Virus record (IMG/VR): IMGVR_UViG_3300025853_000041
Coordinates: 1 to 64,000 of that record
DNA from: a virus
Length of the DNA stretch: 64,000 bases
Reading direction: 5' to 3' (one strand)
In this document: in pieces, positions 1 to 8,856 of the stretch
Layout of the letters: the number at the start of each line of letters is the position of its first letter
Position numbering within the stretch: the stretch's first letter is position 1
Position numbers and translations under genes: made by a program
Notes under the pieces: generated by a model
What the model saw: the letters and a program-made list of their open reading frames with translations, nothing else
What the model was told of the DNA's origin: nothing
Databases searched by the model: none

Positions 1-289
1 TGAATGGCATTCCATGCATATAGAATTCACCTTCAAGAATAATATTATTATCCAAGCAAACTTGATTCAGTTTAGCAAATCTTGCCTTAACAAGGTCACT
101 TCCTGGTTCTTTCAGGCTTCTGGTTAAGACTTTTGGTCCTAAACCAAATTCCATTCTACATCCATCTTTCTTTGGAAAGATTATATATTCTTCAATCCCA
201 CCATTCTTAGCAATTGTTGTTTCAAATGCTGTCTTATCAAATGACCCATCTTTAGGGGCATTTGGTATTAAATTCGGTTTAAATTTCAT
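1..289 (-). CDS. ATP-dependent DNA ligase, N-terminal part (cut by window edge)
   Basis: Only the first 96 codons are in the window; the gene continues past position 1. The product starts at the ATG at 289. It carries the nucleotidyltransferase motif I, K40-K-D-G-C-R45, where Lys40 would take the AMP, and about 45 residues later a LEGEFY segment that fits motif III. This is the signature of the ATP-dependent DNA/RNA ligase superfamily. DNA ligase is favoured over RNA ligase because the neighbours are a polymerase, helicases and an SSB-like protein, so the likely role is sealing nicks during phage replication. The start overlaps the end of the upstream gene by 11 nt, which suggests one polycistronic message. 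Confidence 0.72.
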   Translation of the reverse strand, partial: MKFKPNLIPNAPKDGSFDKTAFETTIAKNGGIEEYIIFPKKDGCRMEFGLGPKVLTRSLKEPGSDLVKARFAKLNQVCLDNNIILEGEFYMHGMPF

Positions 290-548
290 ATTCTTCTAAT
301 GTTTCTATTTCTATTTGTTCATATTCATGCCCATTTTCACTTCTTTCCATAACAAATCTATAAGCTGTCTTGCCATCTTTATCAGTAACAATTTTTTCAG
401 CTAATTTTTGGTCTTTTTCATAATAATAGTGCATTTTTAAATGCTCTTCTATAATATTTAAACAAGCTCCTTTCATAAGAGAATTTGTTGTAACATTCAT
501 TATTGAATCATTATGTTTTCCTTTTAAGATTAATACTTTTATCTTCAT
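279..548 (-). CDS. Hypothetical protein, 89 aa
   Basis: I do not recognise this protein. It is lysine- and glutamate-rich, with an N-terminal KIKVLILKGK strand-like segment and an acidic tail (EQIEIETLEEYEI). No signal peptide or membrane segment is visible. It overlaps the ligase gene downstream and touches the 151-aa gene upstream (shared base at 548), so it is translated as part of the replication operon. A role in replication is inferred from position only. Confidence 0.6.
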   Translation of the reverse strand: MKIKVLILKGKHNDSIMNVTTNSLMKGACLNIIEEHLKMHYYYEKDQKLAEKIVTDKDGKTAYRFVMERSENGHEYEQIEIETLEEYEI

Positions 549-1003
549 TATTGTATGGTATTAGTTTTACTGGTTCTTCCTAAACCTGCTTCTTTTTGTG
601 CTAAGTACTTGTCATACCAATCTGCAAATTCATATATTGCATCAGCTCCTTGTCCTTTCTTTAGAAAGAAATGTGGATATCTAATGTATTTTGAATTTGT
701 TTGTGATAAGTATAGCTTTGTGGTAGCTATAACATCTTCTTTACGAATTTCAGGAAATGCTGCAAACATTGCCTTCATTCTTGAGATAGATTCTCGTACT
801 TTACCACCTTTTGCTGGGTTTTTGGCTTTAAACATTGCACAATACTCGTTGCCAACCCAACTCCAAGGTCCTTCTTTAGTCTCTTGCTTAGTACCTACCA
901 AGCTGTCCATTAATTCTTCTACAAAATTTTTTGCTAATTCTGCATCTTCAGGAGTAGAAAAATTAATGGCACTCAACTTTTTTAATGCTTGATTTTTTGT
1001 CAT
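548..1003 (-). CDS. Hypothetical replication-operon protein, 151 aa
   Basis: No family recognised with confidence. The protein is soluble and basic. It has a central region rich in charged residues and a motif near residues 105-130 with YIRYPHFFLKKG followed by an aromatic-rich helix (YEFADWYDKY). This arrangement resembles accessory replication proteins that contact a helicase or polymerase, but that is only a guess. The ATG overlaps the stop of the SF2 helicase gene (1000-1003), indicating translational coupling with it. Confidence 0.6.
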   Translation of the reverse strand: MTKNQALKKLSAINFSTPEDAELAKNFVEELMDSLVGTKQETKEGPWSWVGNEYCAMFKAKNPAKGGKVRESISRMKAMFAAFPEIRKEDVIATTKLYLSQTNSKYIRYPHFFLKKGQGADAIYEFADWYDKYLAQKEAGLGRTSKTNTIQ

Positions 1004-2115
1004 AATACTAAATCTTTAAATTCGATGTATTCTATTTTATCTGGGTTAAAATTGTTTAAAGTAGAGTTTAACCAAACCTCATCTTGAGTATTTCTTAAGC
1101 ATAAAATCCAAATAACAGCCTTATAGTCTCCTTGTTTTAAAAGAGTCCTGGCTATTTTCTGAGATGTAAGCCCATTATGGTCAGAATCAACTTGAGTTAT
1201 TAATAAATTATCAATATTTAAATATGTGTAACCTGTCCCACCTTTATTAACCATGGCTATTTTATTGGTCTCGCCATCCATAAATTTTTTAAGGTCTGCC
1301 TCATCAGTTTGTCCATGATACACATAATCACACAAGTCTTCAGCTTGCTCTCTACTAACTGCAAAAACTAACTTCTTACCTTCAAGGGAATTAAATATAT
1401 ACTTGGCTGCACCCAATTTTGATGGTGACCTGCCAATAATACTTCTCCTATGAATTAGTCCATATTTAGTTTTTGCTTTCTCTAACCTCAGGGTCAAGTA
1501 GTTATACTGGTCTTCCTCTGATGTCATAAAAGATTTAGGTTGCTTAGTTCTCTTATCTTTATATTCAACTTTGATATTCTTATTTGTATCAAGGTCTATC
1601 ATAACAACTTTAATCTCATAATTAGATAACATACCAATATCAACAGCTTTGTTAATGGATATCTTATACAGAATTTCAAGATTTAATAACTTGTACAACT
1701 CTCTTTTAGTTTTAGTTTTACTTTCAGTTCCTGTCATAGACAATAGAACATTACTAGTCAAATCTTTTGATATTAAATTCTTTGAATTAGCTGTTGTAAT
1801 AAACTGTTCTTCATCTAAAATAATCAAACTATAATGTCCAGTAATATTTTTTAAGCCTCTCCATGTTACAGTCTGAAGTTGAGGTAAATAAGCTTTTGCT
1901 TTCCATTTTTTGAATTCAGCAGGTATATCTGTATCAGCCAATTTACTTGTGGGTGTTACCCAAAGTATTTTTCCAGTTGGTTTGTCTCTTTTGATAATAT
2001 CAATAATTATCTTAGTTTTACCAATTCTAGGGGCTAATATTAATCTACCTGATTCTCCAAAAGGAATTGAGCTTATAATTTCTTTCTGTAATTCACTTTT
2101 CTCTTTACTTGTCAT
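1000..2115 (-). CDS. Superfamily 2 helicase / DEAD-like ATPase
   Basis: This 371-aa protein has a phosphate-binding loop APRIGKTK (about residues 28-35), a Walker B/DExx box in LIILDEEQF (about 95-104) and a motif III-like MTGTESK (about 127-133). These fit an SF2 helicase of the compact UvsW/RecG-like phage type that remodels forks or recombination intermediates. The C-terminal half (residues about 230-330, with NKGGTGYTY and a later ARTLLKQG segment) fits the second RecA-like domain with motifs V and VI. It lies between two small genes with 4-11 nt overlaps, in the same operon as polymerase and ligase. Exact subfamily is not resolvable by eye. Confidence 0.8.
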   Translation of the reverse strand: MTSKEKSELQKEIISSIPFGESGRLILAPRIGKTKIIIDIIKRDKPTGKILWVTPTSKLADTDIPAEFKKWKAKAYLPQLQTVTWRGLKNITGHYSLIILDEEQFITTANSKNLISKDLTSNVLLSMTGTESKTKTKRELYKLLNLEILYKISINKAVDIGMLSNYEIKVVMIDLDTNKNIKVEYKDKRTKQPKSFMTSEEDQYNYLTLRLEKAKTKYGLIHRRSIIGRSPSKLGAAKYIFNSLEGKKLVFAVSREQAEDLCDYVYHGQTDEADLKKFMDGETNKIAMVNKGGTGYTYLNIDNLLITQVDSDHNGLTSQKIARTLLKQGDYKAVIWILCLRNTQDEVWLNSTLNNFNPDKIEYIEFKDLVL

Positions 2116-2494
2116 TTTTGTAAAAATTCTTAAACTTAACCTCCCTTTGCATATACCAATCAGACCTTAAGTATCTAGGAAGATTTTGGATACCTTCTAA
2201 TCTTGCTATCTCCTCTTCCATTGCATCCTTTTTTTCTTTAAACTCTACTAATTTGTCACAGTCATAGCATAGTATAACTTCATACATTCTTCTAACAATA
2301 GTATCAACATTATCCTTCAGTTTGCTATTAATAGTAGTAAAATTATTTCTCATAGTCCTGGCAGTCTCGTCTATAAGACGACTCATTTCATTTTGAATCT
2401 CATATATCTCATATTCTATATTGGCATTGTTTGCTTTAAATATAGAGTTCCAAAATTTTCCTCTATTATCTACATACCCACATGTCTTTTTCAT
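2105..2494 (-). CDS. Hypothetical protein, 129 aa, helical
   Basis: Unrecognised. The sequence is strongly helical and charged, with a likely coiled coil over residues about 20-60 (repeated E/M/N/I heptads) and a second helix containing KEKKDAMEEEIARLEG. A Cys pair in LCYDCD near residue 80 could bind metal but is too little to call a zinc finger. It overlaps the SF2 helicase start by 11 nt and the 60-aa gene by 4 nt, so it belongs to the replication operon. Confidence 0.6.
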   Translation of the reverse strand: MKKTCGYVDNRGKFWNSIFKANNANIEYEIYEIQNEMSRLIDETARTMRNNFTTINSKLKDNVDTIVRRMYEVILCYDCDKLVEFKEKKDAMEEEIARLEGIQNLPRYLRSDWYMQREVKFKNFYKNDK

Positions 2495-2673
2495 AATTCT
2501 TCTAATTCTTCTAAAATGAGTAATTGACGTGCCTTGTTAAATCCAGACTTTGGCTTAAGCTTTTTTATATTCTTTATAAATCTTACTTTAAGTTCATCTG
2601 TTATTTTTTCTCTGTCCTTAATTAACAAATACTCCATATTTGTCAATTGTAAATTTGTTTCAAAATTTGTCAT
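2491..2673 (-). CDS. Small hypothetical protein, 60 aa
   Basis: A short basic, helical protein with no recognised motif. It ends in an acidic LILEELEEL run. Its ATG lies 9 nt downstream of the polymerase stop and its own stop overlaps the next ATG (ATGA type). It is accepted as real because it fills the gap exactly and keeps the tight operon spacing. Confidence 0.5.
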   Translation of the reverse strand: MTNFETNLQLTNMEYLLIKDREKITDELKVRFIKNIKKLKPKSGFNKARQLLILEELEEL

Positions 2674-2682
2674 AATCTTTGT

Positions 2683-4626
2683 TTAATGTACATCTGCGTA
2701 ATTTGCTCCCCATTCTGTGCTGTATCCAATTGAAACATTGAGTCCAAGCTGGTTATTCACCTGGGTCATAGCATCTTTAACTGCTTTGTCCACATAACCT
2801 TTAAACTCTCTTTTACACCATAATAAAAACTCATCATGATATTGCATACAAACTTCAATTCCTAAGGGATTCACTATTTCTCTAAACTTTTTCAACCAGA
2901 AATCAAAAACATACACACCTGTTGATTGATTCAATGTGGAAAACCTGTCTTTTTCAGCTTTTAGAAACATCCAAAATCCTGAAACAGGGTTGTATAACCA
3001 CTTTTGATTCTCAACAATTTTAACTTTAGCGTCCTTTGCTGTGCTTTTAACAGCAGCATTTCTCTTCCAATAAGTTTTATGTAGTTTAGTTGCAAAAGGT
3101 AAATCACATTTTAAAGTTTCTGCAATTTTAGGTGGTCCAGCTCCATAAGTAGCTGAGAAATTTACTATTTTTGCTTTTCCTCTAATATCTTTAATTGTAT
3201 AATACCTCTCTGCATCTTCCTGGCTTGAAAATTTAAACTCGTTGCCTAATTTATCCTTTTGAGCTTCAATTTCTTTATAGAAAACTTCGTCTTCTTTAGT
3301 AATCATTTCAGCTAAAACAGCAATATCAATATGAGGGTCAAATCCTGGGACTCTCATTTCTGTCACATAATCTGGGTCATAATTATATATGTAGTGTTGC
3401 TTAGTGTTGTCCTCTAGCCCACTGATATCACTCCCACACATAATGTATGAAGCATCAGGAACTGTTAGACAACCTCTAACTTCTTCTCCATAATATTTAC
3501 CAACTCCAGGTAAATTTGCTATTGGTTTAGCATGTTGCATCCTAAGGGTATTTGTAAAACCTTGAGCTCTTGAATAAACATATCCATTTTCATCTACACT
3601 CTTTAAAAATGCTTTGAAAAGACTAAATCTATGCCTTGCTCTATATAGTCCTGCTAAATCCTCAAGATAATCATACTTTTTAATTAGGTCTTTTACACTT
3701 GAGCACAATCCTCCACCAAAAGGTAAGGACACTTGTGGCACTTTCTCATCTTTTGCATTAACTTTGAAAGTAATGGGCTCCCAACCTAATGAGAATAACC
3801 AATCTTTCAGTTGTACAGGAGATGTAGGACTGCCTTTTGTAGTAATTACTGTTGTATCTTCAGGTAATTTCTTAAGTTTCAACAACTCTTTCCATTTGTG
3901 CCCATGAGCTGAGAGTTCACCATCTTTTTTGTACATTACTTTTGGTTGCTCTTTATCAACAATCCTGGGCATATACTGGGAAAGATTGGTAATCTTCTCA
4001 TCTATAATGAATTCAAGGTCTAATTTTGATTTTTCAGCCAACCTTAAATCTAATTTAATCTTTACTTTTTCTTGCTCTCTAAGACAATCCATTTTAAAAC
4101 CTAAATACCCAAATAATCTGAGTACATCTGAAATGTTATTATCATAAATCTGCATTGTGTAGTCCATTTGAAAGTGAAATAACTTCCTATTTATCTCTAC
4201 ATCCACCTCACATCTCTTGGTCATTTTTCTAATGAAATCTTCCCAAGTTTCTCCTGATAAAGGTCCAGCCCACTCATCATCAGCTACTACAACTTTTGGA
4301 TATTTGAATCTTTCTCCCCAAGCCTCTAAGCCATGTAGGAATCCTTTGACAGGATAATGATAGAATGAAATACTTAAAGTGTCAATTAATGTAGCTGTGA
4401 TTTTAATTCCTAATACTTTTTCAAGTGCAGGAATATCATAATCAATAATATTATGTCCTACTAAAACTTTTTGCTTCAGCACTAATTCTTTAATTTCTTC
4501 AGGATTAGTTAAAGTCCCTGACTGTATCAGTTCTCGACTATTATAAATCTCATAAGAAAATGTCCAAATTTTTGTAATACTATCTAGTAAGCCATTACCT
4601 TCTATATCAAAAAGGCAATAATTCAT
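2683..4626 (-). CDS. Family A DNA polymerase with 3'-5' exonuclease
   Basis: Replicative polymerase, 647 aa. The exonuclease domain starts at once: FDIEGNG with D7 and E9 (Exo I), VGHNIIDYD near residue 55 (Exo II) and CEVDVEIN near 138 (Exo III, with Cys where Tyr is usual). The polymerase domain shows motif A as CGSDISGLED near residue 396 (first catalytic Asp; DISGLED replaces the familiar DYSQIE), motif B around KIVNFSATYGAG near 485, and motif C QYHDE near 594 (second catalytic Asp-Glu). There is no 5'-nuclease domain, as is usual for phage enzymes of T7-like size. The SSB-like gene ends 3 nt upstream. Many crAss-like phages carry a family A enzyme here while others use family B. Confidence 0.93.
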   Translation of the reverse strand: MNYCLFDIEGNGLLDSITKIWTFSYEIYNSRELIQSGTLTNPEEIKELVLKQKVLVGHNIIDYDIPALEKVLGIKITATLIDTLSISFYHYPVKGFLHGLEAWGERFKYPKVVVADDEWAGPLSGETWEDFIRKMTKRCEVDVEINRKLFHFQMDYTMQIYDNNISDVLRLFGYLGFKMDCLREQEKVKIKLDLRLAEKSKLDLEFIIDEKITNLSQYMPRIVDKEQPKVMYKKDGELSAHGHKWKELLKLKKLPEDTTVITTKGSPTSPVQLKDWLFSLGWEPITFKVNAKDEKVPQVSLPFGGGLCSSVKDLIKKYDYLEDLAGLYRARHRFSLFKAFLKSVDENGYVYSRAQGFTNTLRMQHAKPIANLPGVGKYYGEEVRGCLTVPDASYIMCGSDISGLEDNTKQHYIYNYDPDYVTEMRVPGFDPHIDIAVLAEMITKEDEVFYKEIEAQKDKLGNEFKFSSQEDAERYYTIKDIRGKAKIVNFSATYGAGPPKIAETLKCDLPFATKLHKTYWKRNAAVKSTAKDAKVKIVENQKWLYNPVSGFWMFLKAEKDRFSTLNQSTGVYVFDFWLKKFREIVNPLGIEVCMQYHDEFLLWCKREFKGYVDKAVKDAMTQVNNQLGLNVSIGYSTEWGANYADVH

Positions 4627-4628
4627 TT

Positions 4629-4925
4629 TTAAATTATTTTAATAGAATAGATATAAATGTTATTATATCTTTTGTTGTTCTTCTCTGAACCTTGAAATAA
4701 ATACTTGATTTCTACTGTTGAACCCTGAGTAATATTCTCTGTATCTAACATTTTCAGTTTTCCATTTCTTAGTTCAGGAAATAACACTTGACCATCAGGT
4801 GTTTCTATTGTTAAAACTTTTTTGTACAAATCTGGAATTCCATCCCTTTCTATGTGGACTAAATCTCCAATCATGTGTACTGTCCCTTTCAAATTAAAAT
4901 AGTTTTTATCTATATGCTTATTCAT
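4629..4925 (-). CDS. OB-fold single-stranded DNA-binding-like protein
   Basis: A 98-aa protein that reads as a small OB fold: strands in LKGTVHMIGD, KVLTIETPDG, an SxVEIKYLFQGS segment and a final YNNIYIYSIKII. The strand order and the closing aromatic strand resemble the short SSB-like proteins (DUF3127 type) common in Bacteroidota phages. Placement between the SF1 helicase (4-nt overlap) and the polymerase (3-nt gap) supports a role in coating ssDNA at the fork. The acidic C-terminal tip of cellular SSB is missing. Confidence 0.6.
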   Translation of the reverse strand: MNKHIDKNYFNLKGTVHMIGDLVHIERDGIPDLYKKVLTIETPDGQVLFPELRNGKLKMLDTENITQGSTVEIKYLFQGSEKNNKRYNNIYIYSIKII

Positions 4926-6226
4926 ACTTTATATAAAATTAATAACTTACTGGCTCTTGTTATTGCTGTGTACAATAGCCTTTCTCGTTCTGTTTTGTTT
5001 TTGTTTAACTTAAGATTTTGGATGTTAACTATGGTTTGTCCATATGTACTACCCTGGCTTTTATGTACAGTAATTGCATGATTATATTTCAAATCAGCAA
5101 AACTCTCTTTAAAACTATAATAGTCAGTCCATGGGATAATCTTAGCTTTACACATACTCCTTAGATTCGCCAACAACTTATTAAAAGCTGCATCAGAGTC
5201 TTCGTGAATAAGTACAACATTATCAATTTGTTGCCCAAGCTCTTCATCGAATTTGGAATTGATAGAGTAATACTTAAAAGTAATAGGCTTAAATGTAGTT
5301 GTTGAGGTAAATGCTCCTGGGACTTTGCCAGCAGGATAATAAAACTTTTTCTCTAACACTTGTAAGCTTTCCACCTTAATCTCTTGGTTTGTAAAATACT
5401 CTTCTTTATATGGATTATTAAAAACTAAGGTTTCTCCAACCTCAACTTTATTGGGAGAGGGACCATATATCCTCTTTCTGACAAGATTATTAATCATGTC
5501 AACTTCTTTATTCGTCCACGCTAAATATTTTAGCTCATCTGTACCATTTACAGCAGCTAATGTTTCTATAACTTGGGGTAAATTGTCACTATATAAGTAG
5601 CCATTATCATCAATTCTATTATCAATTTTATTGAAAATAGCATCTAAATTACGACTTAAAGGTATAATTGGGTTACCTTCTCCTTGTCTGACAATTTCTG
5701 TAATCTCGACTTCTGGATATCCCTGAACAAAGATTGGTGATACGTCTTCTCCTACTGGATTCAATTGTTTGTGGTCTCCTATAAATATTACTATACAGTT
5801 GTTATTATCTGCATGTTCTTCCACATAACGTAGTAATTCAGTATTTAGCATCGAACCTTCATCAATAATTAATAGCCCAACTCCTTTGAGAGGTGGATAC
5901 TTTTCACTATAAAAAGGTTTGAAGGTGATTGCTCCTGTTCTAAAGTTTACTTCTCTTTTAATTTTTAGTGCTGAATGGACAGTGGTAAATTCGAGATTGG
6001 GTCTCTCATCTACTTTTCCTTTTAATACAGCTACTGCTTTATTTGTTGGTGCAGAACAATATATCTTTCTCATAAATGGTAGAGTTTTGGCTAATCTACC
6101 TATTAGTTCATTAACTAAGTAAGTTTTACCTACTCCTGCACTTCCTGTAATCAACAGTCTTTTACTATTTTTTAAGATTTCTAAACTTTCTACCAGTTTT
6201 TCTTCCTGGTGTGCTGTTAAACTCAT
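4922..6226 (-). CDS. Superfamily 1 helicase (Dda/RecD-like)
   Basis: This 434-aa protein has all main SF1 landmarks: Walker A GSAGVGKT (residues 28-35), a motif Ia segment YCSAPTNKAV, Walker B LLIIDEGSML near 115, motif III FIGDHKQLNPVG near 150, motif V AITVHKSQGSTYG near 385 and motif VI LLYTAITRASK near 420. The layout matches phage Dda and RecD2-type 5'-3' helicases, which unwind ahead of the fork or clear proteins from DNA. It is the first replication gene after the terminator-like hairpin at 6285-6318, so it could head the replication transcript. Confidence 0.9.
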   Translation of the reverse strand: MSLTAHQEEKLVESLEILKNSKRLLITGSAGVGKTYLVNELIGRLAKTLPFMRKIYCSAPTNKAVAVLKGKVDERPNLEFTTVHSALKIKREVNFRTGAITFKPFYSEKYPPLKGVGLLIIDEGSMLNTELLRYVEEHADNNNCIVIFIGDHKQLNPVGEDVSPIFVQGYPEVEITEIVRQGEGNPIIPLSRNLDAIFNKIDNRIDDNGYLYSDNLPQVIETLAAVNGTDELKYLAWTNKEVDMINNLVRKRIYGPSPNKVEVGETLVFNNPYKEEYFTNQEIKVESLQVLEKKFYYPAGKVPGAFTSTTTFKPITFKYYSINSKFDEELGQQIDNVVLIHEDSDAAFNKLLANLRSMCKAKIIPWTDYYSFKESFADLKYNHAITVHKSQGSTYGQTIVNIQNLKLNKNKTERERLLYTAITRASKLLILYKV

Positions 6227-6284
6227 TTTTTTACTTCATTTTTCATTAGGTTTTTTAATATTAAAAATTCTATAATACAGATAA

Positions 6285-6318
6285 AGAAAAATAGAGTAGG
6301 AAATTACCCTATTTTTCT
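6285..6318. terminator. Intrinsic terminator-like hairpin
   Basis: The sequence forms AGAAAAATAG-a-GTA ... TAC-c-CTATTTTTCT with a short GGAAAT loop. The A-rich left arm and T-rich right arm would work in either direction. On the minus strand it follows directly after the stop of the 62-aa gene at 6324 and precedes the SF1 helicase, so it probably separates the accessory genes from the replication operon, fully or partly. Confidence 0.6.
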
Positions 6319-6323
6319 TTTAA

Positions 6324-6512
6324 TTATTGTTTTTGCATTGCAAGTATTTGTTGCGTAGCATAACCTGGACCTTTCTGTATAAACTGTCCATTTGCAGGAT
6401 TACACATAATCCATCTACCTCTGTTTGATACCCTATAAAAGTCTAACCTTTTAAATAGGTCGTTCCAAACTGGTTTAACTCTTCCTCTTTTAAGCATTCT
6501 TTTAAGACTCAT
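6324..6512 (-). CDS. Small basic protein, 62 aa
   Basis: Unrecognised. It is very basic at the N-terminus (MSLKRMLKRGRVKP) and contains NRGRWIMCNPANGQF, suggesting nucleic-acid contact, but no known fold can be named. It is the last gene before the hairpin at 6285-6318. Confidence 0.5.
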   Translation of the reverse strand: MSLKRMLKRGRVKPVWNDLFKRLDFYRVSNRGRWIMCNPANGQFIQKGPGYATQQILAMQKQ

Positions 6513-6542
6513 AATTATTGTTTTGACCTGTTACTATTTTCA

Positions 6543-6788
6543 TTATTCACTTGGGTATATAGTATCATCAAAACTATTTGATAATACGGTTATTAATTTC
6601 TGTACTTGTTCTTGTGTCAATTGAATATAAGGTTGAGTGCTTAGCATTGTAAGCTGAAGCATTCTTCCATTTTCTGCTCCACCATAGAACCTAGTAATCA
6701 TCATACCTGTTGGCTCCTTAACGTGCTTTGCAAGAGTAGATTTTTTACTTTCTACTATACCTGCTATTGTTGTAATGTGTGTGCTCAT
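6543..6788 (-). CDS. Hypothetical protein, 81 aa
   Basis: No family recognised. A soluble protein with a predicted mixed fold (RMLQLTMLSTQPYIQLTQEQVQ) and an N-terminal segment that looks like a beta strand then a basic helix. A poly-A-rich leader precedes the ATG on the coding strand, as for most genes here, and it lies 13 nt after the larger 221-aa gene. Confidence 0.5.
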   Translation of the reverse strand: MSTHITTIAGIVESKKSTLAKHVKEPTGMMITRFYGGAENGRMLQLTMLSTQPYIQLTQEQVQKLITVLSNSFDDTIYPSE

Positions 6789-6801
6789 TTTTTCCTATAT
6801 T

Positions 6802-7467
6802 TTATAAGTTTTCTTTTATCCAATCTATAAAAAGTCCACTATGCACTAATTTAGCTTGTCCCCAACATTGTTTACATAGTTCTTCAACTTCTTCTCTACT
6901 ATACATCTTCTCTTCTACAGAAGTAATGTTCACAGTATTGTCTTGGTTTAGTTTTGGCAACATTATCCAATTTGGTTTATGTTTTAATCCAAAACGAATA
7001 TAATCTTCTTCCCAAGTTTTTGATAAAGGGTTAATATCTTTCTTTTCATACTCAACTTCCCACTCTCCATCAGGATTAGCAACATATTCTTCTAAGAATG
7101 ATAGTGGTACTTGTGGTATCTGGTGTTCAAGATATTCTTTAACTCCATTAGACTCATCAATTACTCCTGTGTATTCTTTAATAGTAAGCTTAGGGTTAGT
7201 AGTTGCTATGATTTTAACATAATCTTGTCTTACTTCCCAATAAGCTTTATCATTAGTAAGAGATTGTCTTACAGTATTAGTATCATCAATATACCAATCA
7301 CCTTCTTTAATAGGCTCTATATCTTGTGATACTGTTATGTATGTATGTTGCCAATTACCTAAAAATCCTTCATGGTTATCTCCAATATATCTTAATTTCT
7401 TTCCAACTAAACATATATTAGTTCTATCTTCTGTTGGTAGCATTATTACCTGTACTGGTTGTTTCAT
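6802..7467 (-). CDS. Bacteroidota-phage conserved hypothetical protein, 221 aa
   Basis: The N-terminus (PVQVIMLPTED) and the block with GDWYIDDTN and KIIATTNPKL match a protein family that I have often seen in phages of Bacteroidota, always without a function. No catalytic motif is visible. The C-terminus contains a basic-acidic helix (YSREEVEELCKQCW). It is the first gene after the structured stretch downstream of the tmRNA. Confidence 0.6.
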   Translation of the reverse strand: MKQPVQVIMLPTEDRTNICLVGKKLRYIGDNHEGFLGNWQHTYITVSQDIEPIKEGDWYIDDTNTVRQSLTNDKAYWEVRQDYVKIIATTNPKLTIKEYTGVIDESNGVKEYLEHQIPQVPLSFLEEYVANPDGEWEVEYEKKDINPLSKTWEEDYIRFGLKHKPNWIMLPKLNQDNTVNITSVEEKMYSREEVEELCKQCWGQAKLVHSGLFIDWIKENL

Positions 7468-7949
7468 AATTTACTTTGTGTTATTTATTAATAAAAATAT
7501 AAGCCTTGTTTATCTCACCTATTATATTAAAGTTGTCTTTGTATGTGACCAATAATACGTTTCCCCTGTTACCTTATCATACCTTTAGTAACCATTTGTG
7601 AATGCAGGAATTGCTTAGCCTAACTTCCTCTTAATGTTAGGTACTTATATTTATTAAAAAGTTCTTTGCCCAAATTTCAGTTATGGGGTATAGTTAGGAA
7701 TTTTACCTAATCTAGTATGGCTAACCGTATGACTTTTCCATGTCTTACTATACATCTACAATAAACACAACTGCTGATACAGTTTATAGCCTACACGCCA
7801 AGTAGTTTTACATAGCTTCGACACTACTGCTATTGTCTATCTTCAATTAAAGAACTATTCTAACCCTATATCTCATCAGCTATCATAAGATTTCGCTATG
7901 ATATTCAGATAATATCTATCTTGCTGATGAGAGGGCTATTAGATACTAG
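7468..7949 (-). other. Non-coding structured stretch downstream of tmRNA
   Basis: About 480 nt without a credible gene. The part from 7560 to 7931 contains several inverted repeats (for example GTTAC/GTAAC near 7570-7590 and the junction at 7872-7931) but no tRNA, RNase P or riboswitch core that I recognise. It would be transcribed as the 3' continuation of the tmRNA message and could be a second small RNA or a processing or termination region. Confidence 0.4.
7872..7931 (-). other. Three-way-junction-like hairpin after tmRNA
   Basis: A perfect 9-bp outer stem (CTCATCAGC with GCTGATGAG) encloses two inner hairpins: TATCATA/TATGATA around a 9-nt loop, and AGAT-AAT-ATCT. It begins 19 nt downstream of the tmRNA 3' end on the minus strand. 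It lacks a U tract, so it may define the end of the primary tmRNA transcript by blocking nucleases rather than acting as a normal terminator. Confidence 0.55.
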
Positions 7950-8326
7950 TGGAGACGCTGGGACTCGAACCCAGGTCTTTCATATATCAATAATAATATT
8001 TTATACAGCTTCACGTTTCTTTAAATTCTTTACGCTAGATTAGGACCAACTGTTAAGTTGATACTCCACCATCAAGTTAGTTACTCTTGAATACTTATAT
8101 TACATAGTTATGGACTATGCAGCCATCTGAAGTTCACCAGTAACAACATCATTAAGATGCTTACTAGCAAGAATGTTGTGAACAACACTCATGTTTGCTT
8201 CAATCTGTGCAGTTTCCTGCGTGGTAATTGTGTTTCCATTTAAGTAAACTCACCTTAGTTTTAAACAGTTATCTCTCTGTGCTGAACATTATTAAATCGC
8301 TATAAAATCAATTCCATGTCGTCCCC
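7950..8326 (-). ncRNA. ssrA: Phage-encoded tmRNA
   Basis: Both halves of the tRNA-like domain are present 377 nt apart. The 5' end GGGGACG pairs perfectly with the 3' strand CGTCTCC (positions 7951-7957), with discriminator A at 7950. The third pair is G-U, the alanine identity element of tmRNA and tRNA-Ala. Next to the acceptor are a D-loop-like TGGAATTGAT and a canonical T arm CTGGG-TTCGAGT-CCCAG preceded by AGAC. Helix P2 can form between CAGC and AATAAT near nt 34-46 and GCTG and ATTATT near nt 318-338. A tag frame opens with GGA at nt 90 and ends at TAG (8115-8117). The CCA end is not encoded. Host SmpB and AlaRS would be needed. It sits 12 nt after the CAP-domain gene. Confidence 0.9.
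8115..8237 (-). other. tmRNA tag reading frame (about 40 codons)
   Basis: If the resume codon is the GGA at RNA nt 90, the position used by the Escherichia coli tmRNA, the tag runs 40 codons to TAG. It begins Gly-Asn, much like the GENNYALAA type of Bacteroidota, and ends in ELQMAA, similar to the LAA degron. The frame is closed upstream by a TGA at RNA nt 75-77, so at most 44 codons are available. A later resume codon (for example GCA at 8198) would give a shorter tag. The position of the start is inference; the open frame and Ala-Ala end are seen directly. Confidence 0.6.
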
Positions 8327-8337
8327 AAATTCTATTT

Positions 8338-8826
8338 TTAATATCCAAAAGTTTGACAGTACCACGTTTTACCATTTTCATCTAAAACTTTTGCAATACC
8401 TGTATATTTCCAACGAGGATTTACAATGTTTTTATGATGCTTAAGACTAGCAATCCATTCTTGAACTAATCTCTCGGAAGTAACCCATCCTTTTGCTAAA
8501 TTTTCTCCTGTAAATTTAATTCCAAAAGGAATAAGATTCTCAGTTGTTATATCCATTCTATCATGACTTAGTTTTCCATGTTCAGCTTGAATCTCTGCTC
8601 TTTTATGTGCTTCAACATAAAATTTATCATCTGGTTTTAAATCATCTAAATCTCGTGATTCCCGATACCTATTTACATGAAGCAAAACAGCTCTTTCAAA
8701 ATTAGACCATTTCATACCATCAATAGATTGGTACTTTTTCTTTTTAAATAATTTCATTAAATATTTTCGATTACTACATATTACTACCACAGCAATAAAT
8801 ATTAGACCTGATATTAGTGTACTCAT
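8338..8826 (-). CDS. CAP/SCP-domain protein with N-terminal membrane anchor
   Basis: A 162-aa protein. Residues 1-20 form a hydrophobic anchor (LISGLIFIAVVVIC) followed by a KKKK stretch, so the rest is probably membrane-tethered. Residues about 45-160 show CAP-superfamily hallmarks: ERAVLLHVNRYR, the first-His segment AEHGKLSHDR, GENLAKGW, and the second half EWIASLKHHKNI...YTGIAKV with a closing WYCQTFG. Bacterial CAP proteins are usually extracytoplasmic and poorly understood. In a phage accessory region a role in envelope change, lysis or exclusion is plausible. It lies directly upstream of the tmRNA. Confidence 0.75.
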   Translation of the reverse strand: MSTLISGLIFIAVVVICSNRKYLMKLFKKKKYQSIDGMKWSNFERAVLLHVNRYRESRDLDDLKPDDKFYVEAHKRAEIQAEHGKLSHDRMDITTENLIPFGIKFTGENLAKGWVTSERLVQEWIASLKHHKNIVNPRWKYTGIAKVLDENGKTWYCQTFGY

Positions 8827-8856
8827 ATCTTTATCTATTTTAGTTGTTATTCGGAG

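Follow-up and report, generated by a model that had tools for sequence, protein, structure and literature searches.

A phage tmRNA family with a long predicted tag that carries a conserved helix-like module

The question raised by this locus is whether the phage carries its own trans-translation RNA and, if so, what such an RNA would do to ribosome rescue in the host. In the window (the whole 64,000-nucleotide stretch of DNA analysed here), the earlier note had proposed a tmRNA gene at positions 7950-8326. This proposal was borne out by a match to the Rfam tmRNA model RF00023, by a second copy of the gene in the same genome and by 81 relatives. The match covers positions 7947-8326 on the minus strand and spans the whole model (57.3 bits, E 7.9e-20, against a gathering score of 47 bits), so that the Infernal search suggested at that time was positive. 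It ends at 7947 because it includes the CTA which occupies the place of the CCA. The features of the RNA itself are as follows.

7950-8326, minus strand: tmRNA gene, from acceptor G1 to discriminator A73, with an architecture common to 81 relatives
8320-8326, minus strand: 5' acceptor strand GGGGACG, forming seven of seven pairs with 7951-7957, including G3-U70
7951-7957, minus strand: 3' acceptor strand CGTCTCC, followed by the discriminator A at 7950 and then CTA, the CCA not being encoded
7958-7974, minus strand: T arm CTGGG TTCGAGT CCCAG, with a T stem of five out of five pairs and compensatory changes among relatives

The ends had been placed correctly: GGGGACG (8326-8320) pairs with CGTCTCC (7957-7951), G3-U70 is present and position 7950 is the discriminator A. 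The T arm is canonical, as had been described. The gene was found to possess several attributes of an RF00023 member, namely the model score, a tRNA-like domain (G3-U70, T arm, discriminator A) and P2. Pseudoknots PK2 to PK4, which follow the tag, were aligned by Rfam at low confidence with many non-standard pairs. The Rfam score is modest, which counts against the best reading, and ARAGORN, the other program that had been suggested, called no tmRNA gene in the window. The tag frame, the second tmRNA of the genome and the breadth of the family were absent from the earlier note.

A gene for a CAP-domain protein (cysteine-rich secretory protein family; window 8338-8826, minus strand) ends 11 bases upstream of the tmRNA. 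Directly downstream lie approximately 480 bases without a long ORF (7468-7946, minus strand), of which 7600-7946 folds better than shuffled sequences (z -3.09). Cellulophaga phages phi4:1 and phi17:2 share a 41-base piece of this stretch at 93% identity, and phi14:2 and L288 have matches of 30-39 bases. Rfam gave nothing convincing here; the stretch may be a second non-coding RNA.

Relatives were first located by a distant DNA search. The same RNA was identified among Cellulophaga phages, namely in phi14:2 (family Steigviridae of the Crassvirales), phi38:1, phi40:1 and Calle_1 to Calle_3, as well as in 29 Fpv1-type phages of Flavobacterium. Their RF00023 scores include 86.6 bits for Calle_1, 58.2 bits for Fpv1 and 46.0 bits for phi14:2, the last being just below the cut-off of 47, a point counted against the best reading. 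A survey was then based on the following signature.

8248-8279 (ends approximate), minus strand: PK1 core (CAGAGAGATAACTG...AAACTAAGGTGA)

This signature was found in at least 119 viral stretches of IMG/VR and, as an exact pattern, had no match among 84,980 genomes of bacteria and archaea. As it was taken from the PK1 core and not from the tag, the sample of relatives was not selected on the tag; being exact, it could miss more divergent relatives, prophages included. All 81 distinct full-length genes among the relatives have seven of seven acceptor pairs, G3-U70, the discriminator A and a T stem of five out of five pairs, the acceptor and T-stem counts being partly by construction because the parser required 11 of 12 acceptor and T-stem pairs and a GGG start. 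The counts for U70, the discriminator and P2 were not set by these criteria. The seven-position acceptor pairing with its G3-U70 wobble, which had been noticed in the window, is kept in 81 of 81 distinct relatives, and the wobble is retained by acceptors of differing sequence (e.g., GGGCCTG/CAGGTCC and GGGCTAG/CTAGTCC). P2, which had been thought drawable, is formed by the two gene ends and is backed by many compensatory changes over these 81 genes. When all helices are counted, 25 of 32 consensus pairs vary on both sides, with 95.5% of cells paired. The position of PK1 and its constant spacing of 11-13 nt to the resume codon fit a tmRNA; its core is invariant and so gives no covariation signal. 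The apparent lack of a T arm in some relatives was traced in part of them to an inserted group I intron, and in the others to a changed T loop or to the contig running out. In L039 (3998-4221), L042 (2766-2989) and L098 (1524-1739), group I introns (94-96 bits) occupy the 3' end of the tmRNA, either at the T arm or close to it.

The assignment to a crAss-like phage holds in a broad sense, on the basis of TerL, portal and capsid, although the nearest isolate, Flavobacterium phage Fpv1, is not placed in Crassvirales in its record. TerL identity is 62% between the window and Fpv1 and 31% between the window and phi14:2, and 42 of 50 carriers have a homologue. For the portal and the major capsid protein, the matches are to members of Crassvirales, at 21-30% identity. 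These three genes are common to nine of the ten genomes compared, Calle_1 being the one without them. The earlier remark that tmRNAs are not a regular feature of crAss-like phages remains valid for gut members, as none of 13 crAss-like records, nearly all of them from gut samples, had a tmRNA above the cut-off; a general crAss feature was rejected on this count. The remark does not extend to the flavobacterial crAss-like lineage, of which the tmRNA is a recurring feature.

Downstream of PK1 the gene contains a long reading frame, with the following parts.

8115-8237, minus strand: tag reading frame, 40 codons from the resume codon GGA (8237-8235), with the stop TAG at 8117-8115
8169-8207, minus strand: conserved helix module QIEANMSVVHNIL, a helix in the structure model
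8118-8168, minus strand: variable tail ASKHLNDVVTGELQMAA, with a degron-like end

From a host-like resume site the window tag runs unbroken through 40 codons as GNTITTQETAQIEANMSVVHNILASKHLNDVVTGELQMAA, and the tags predicted for Cellulophaga phages phi38:1 and phi14:2 are GNNTNAVNAQIEANMEAVNAILNLEVAVGV and GNDTDNTQLKANMTVVHNILNGSDALIGSSVQKLAMVA, respectively. Across 84 distinct tag frames (2993 codons) there are no stops in frame 0, with 378 and 267 in frames 1 and 2. The 81 distinct tag peptides have 24-49 residues (median 35), 30 of them exceeding 35, the upper end of the known range of 8-35 given in a review (PMC8012679). They have in common the segment Q-x-x-ANM-x-x-V-x-x-[LI]-[LI], a predicted helix. 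QxxANM is present in 83 of the 84 frames, with the V kept in 82 of those 83 and with third codon positions that vary, and the terminus is AA in 78 of 84, all of these being counts that take in related sequences and not independent events. The tags of L037 and L106 (GNIDNDAQEVVDINYTFST...) are the only ones without ANM; the complete L037 tag ends in QVAIAA.

Several observations bear on whether this frame is read as a tag. It has the form expected of a tmRNA tag (a start-less frame with a hydrophobic AA end), and departs from the usual in length. In the 84 tag frames the resume codon lies 11-13 nt past PK1, so that the frame relative to PK1 varies between phages. A strict form of the tag motif, searched in six frames of ten phage genomes, matched only at tmRNAs and in nine of the ten; the tenth, Fpv1, has Ala for Val and gave no strict match. 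In these genomes the open stretch bearing the motif extends no more than a few codons ahead of the resume codon. An alternative is that the frame encodes a free small protein which overlaps the tmRNA and has an independent start, for example the ATG of ANM. The Met is indeed invariant in 83 of 84 frames, and some in-frame ATG, GTG or TTG precedes the resume codon in 35 of 84. However, conservation reaches upstream of the Met (to Q, A and N), the other 49 frames have no start codon ahead of the resume codon, the frame is set from the resume codon, 11-13 nt past PK1, and not by a fixed start, and no motif was found outside the tmRNAs of the ten genomes. A free protein is thus quite improbable.

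The substitution patterns demonstrate a tag of three parts, namely a spacer with loose constraint, a helix-like module subject to purifying selection and a variable tail, the last two residues of which are nearly always AA. The QxxANMxxVxx[LI][LI] block is under the strongest selection (dN/dS 0.19); selection on the last five residues is intermediate (0.55), and that on the spacer, as measured in the commonest class, is weak (pN/pS 0.85). In the AlphaFold model, tag residues 6-24 form a helix, at moderate confidence (mean pLDDT 73, blocks 59-87). It could be argued that the RNA is a functional tmRNA in which the extra length is simply a flexible linker, helping host ClpXP or Lon to grip truncated proteins, the middle of the tag having no specific partner. 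A nearly neutral spacer would agree with this, as would an AA end that is kept while the lengths of spacer and tail vary. Such a linker leaves the invariant Q, A, N, M and V and the low dN/dS of the helix block unexplained, and we regard it as unlikely.

The genome to which the window belongs (G000, 105,181 bases) carries a second tmRNA at 103911-104311 (RF00023, 57.4 bits), the tag of which is GNTTSTQETAQIEANMSVVHNILNDFQGVSQDTMGGQVLIAA. The two copies are 95.7% identical over window 8169-8331 and 98.4% identical over 7947-8071, and they diverge between those blocks, i.e., in the tag tail and part of the interior. Among the relatives, one and the same spacer-helix part can be joined to different tails, and the same tail can also follow different spacer-helix parts. 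This shuffling of tails between tags, together with the identity pattern of the two copies, suggests recombination or gene conversion around the variable tail. The copies lie in a diverged duplication of approximately 8.5 kb (window 1-8842 against about 95666-104425 of the genome), which also holds two A-family DNA polymerases (66% identical) and two helicases (67%), with patches of 95-98% identity amid genes at 66-75%, as if by gene conversion. Alternatively, the duplication may be due to a chimeric assembly.

In both copies all acceptor pairs are present and the tag is open. The reading of the locus as a captured host tmRNA, now decaying or functionless, would fit the blindness of ARAGORN to the window gene. 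It is already contradicted by these two copies, by the compensatory changes and open frame found family-wide and by the absence of the signature from host genomes, and its probability is practically nil. Taken together, the alignments demonstrate that selection has kept both the tmRNA architecture, which is intact, and the long tag frame.

Annotation has overlooked the tag. ARAGORN missed both copies in the genome of the window as well as the Fpv1 gene, and recognised those of phi14:2 and Calle_1 with tags begun late, GNNTNAVNAQIEANMEAVNAILNLEVAVGV being started eight residues late. Recognition by ARAGORN is a rule of the program and not a defining feature of tmRNA. The tmRNA is unannotated in GenBank records KC821624 (phi14:2), KC821614 (phi38:1) and KU599877 (Fpv1), and hypothetical proteins are drawn across it in the phi14:2 and phi38:1 records; it is annotated in none of the phi14:2, phi38:1 and Fpv records examined.

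On the evidence of the sequences, the gene is quite likely a functional phage-specific tmRNA which works with the SmpB and AlaRS of the host, and in which the host tag has been replaced by a bipartite tag of helix module and degron. By analogy with the tmRNA family, it would be charged by host AlaRS through G3-U70 and delivered by host SmpB to ribosomes stalled on broken messages, where the ribosome would resume at GGA (8237) and tag the chain. Through its AA end, the tagged chain could then be passed to an AAA+ protease of the host, for example ClpXP. The helix, judging from its conservation, may be a module that docks onto a host factor (an adaptor, a protease or a chaperone), and such docking would place the fate of rescued chains under the direction of the phage. 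No SmpB was detected in 50 carrier records and no ClpP above the cut-off in 35, both sets being mostly metagenomic contigs and perhaps incomplete. A search of ten genomes for a common accessory partner gene returned only crAss-like structural and other widely shared genes, and no relatives of the tag were found in PDB, Pfam or plasmids. That these searches gave no partner for the helix counts against the best reading. As no shared phage partner appeared, a docking partner of the helix would most likely be a host factor. A phage without its own SmpB would have its RNA compete with the host tmRNA for host SmpB. An alternative is a decoy which occupies host SmpB or ribosomes and so blocks host trans-translation. 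A decoy has been proposed in the literature for a phage molecule with little beyond the tRNA-like domain, and a truncated tmRNA is described as able to inhibit tmRNA, perhaps by titration of SmpB (Hudson 2014; PMC4131195). The lack of SmpB in the 50 records agrees with a decoy, but a decoy does not need a tag, and here every relative has an open tag that is under selection, which makes this alternative very improbable.

For the preferred reading, a functional tmRNA with a phage-specific tag, the earlier suggestion that the phage replaces or redirects host rescue is plausible, and the tag gives a first concrete reason to favour redirecting over replacing. The fate of half-made proteins is probably altered by the virus during infection. 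It is also conceivable, at somewhat less than even chances, that trans-translation serves phages as a protein-sorting device. The helix would then be a phage-encoded address by which every chain that leaves a stalled ribosome during infection is directed to a particular partner (a protease, an adaptor, a chaperone or even the ribosome), and recombination would diversify the tail, which can be swapped and differs between the two copies of one phage. The tags of tmRNAs are usually viewed as simple degrons of short length. The tmRNA family described here is phage-restricted, extends across several phage groups and has an invariant tag module that evolves like a protein domain. The reason why phages carry tmRNAs thereby becomes directly testable, as a choice between replaced host capacity and changed fate of nascent chains; a specific, as yet unseen peptide is predicted in infected cells, and with it possibly a new degron/adaptor pair.

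Phage ssrA genes are known from mycobacteriophages Bxz1, Cali and Wildcat, Bacillus phage G, methylophage Melnitz and huge phages, and a long conserved tag is not reported in the accessible parts of these accounts (PMC4131195, PMC9004378, PMC7162821). The tmRNA of Melnitz is two-piece and SmpB is also encoded by some huge phages, the 2014 census covered ten phages (mycobacteriophages and Bacillus phage G; PMC4131195), and a 2022 study which discusses Melnitz listed ssrA in 402 phages (PMC9004378). Bartlau et al. counted one tmRNA in Calle, with no discussion of the tag in the text available (PMC8776804). No description of the long tag was found in the literature, mostly its openly accessible part, an absence which is no proof. 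The tmRNA of Cellulophaga phages Calle_1 and phi38:1 belongs to the same family, ending its tag GNNTNAVNAQIEANMEAVNAILNLEVAVGV at a stop codon; Calle_1 is recorded as Pervagoviridae and its gene is annotated merely as 'tmRNA', while that of phi38:1 is overlaid by a hypothetical protein. The ssrA tag of Mesoplasma florum is a cellular one, degraded by Lon in a bacterium without ClpXP, whereas the phage tag retains the AA end.

The closest comparison is with host ssrA. Of 32 Flavobacteriaceae host tmRNAs, 31 have a 9-residue tag (e.g., GENNYALAA) and one was unparsed, and GExNYALAA was found in at least 120 genome stretches, mostly of Bacteroidota. A second weak tmRNA in host genome G177 (L348 8762-9173, ~45 kb from the main one) was considered as a prophage copy and rejected, as its tag is the ordinary GENNYALAA of the host; it is a degenerate paralogue of the host gene. 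Like the ssrA of Flavobacteriaceae and other Bacteroidota (RF00023), the phage RNA is one-piece with a G3-U70 acceptor and P2, and has the same resume context (..TTTTAAAC GG..), a first tag residue which is usually Gly and an AA end. Unlike host ssrA, it has a PK1 core found in 0 of 84,980 genomes and a tag of 24-49 residues with an invariant helix module, about three to five times the length of the host tag. Given the shared resume context and the short host tags, the phage tag resembles a host tag in which the middle has been replaced.
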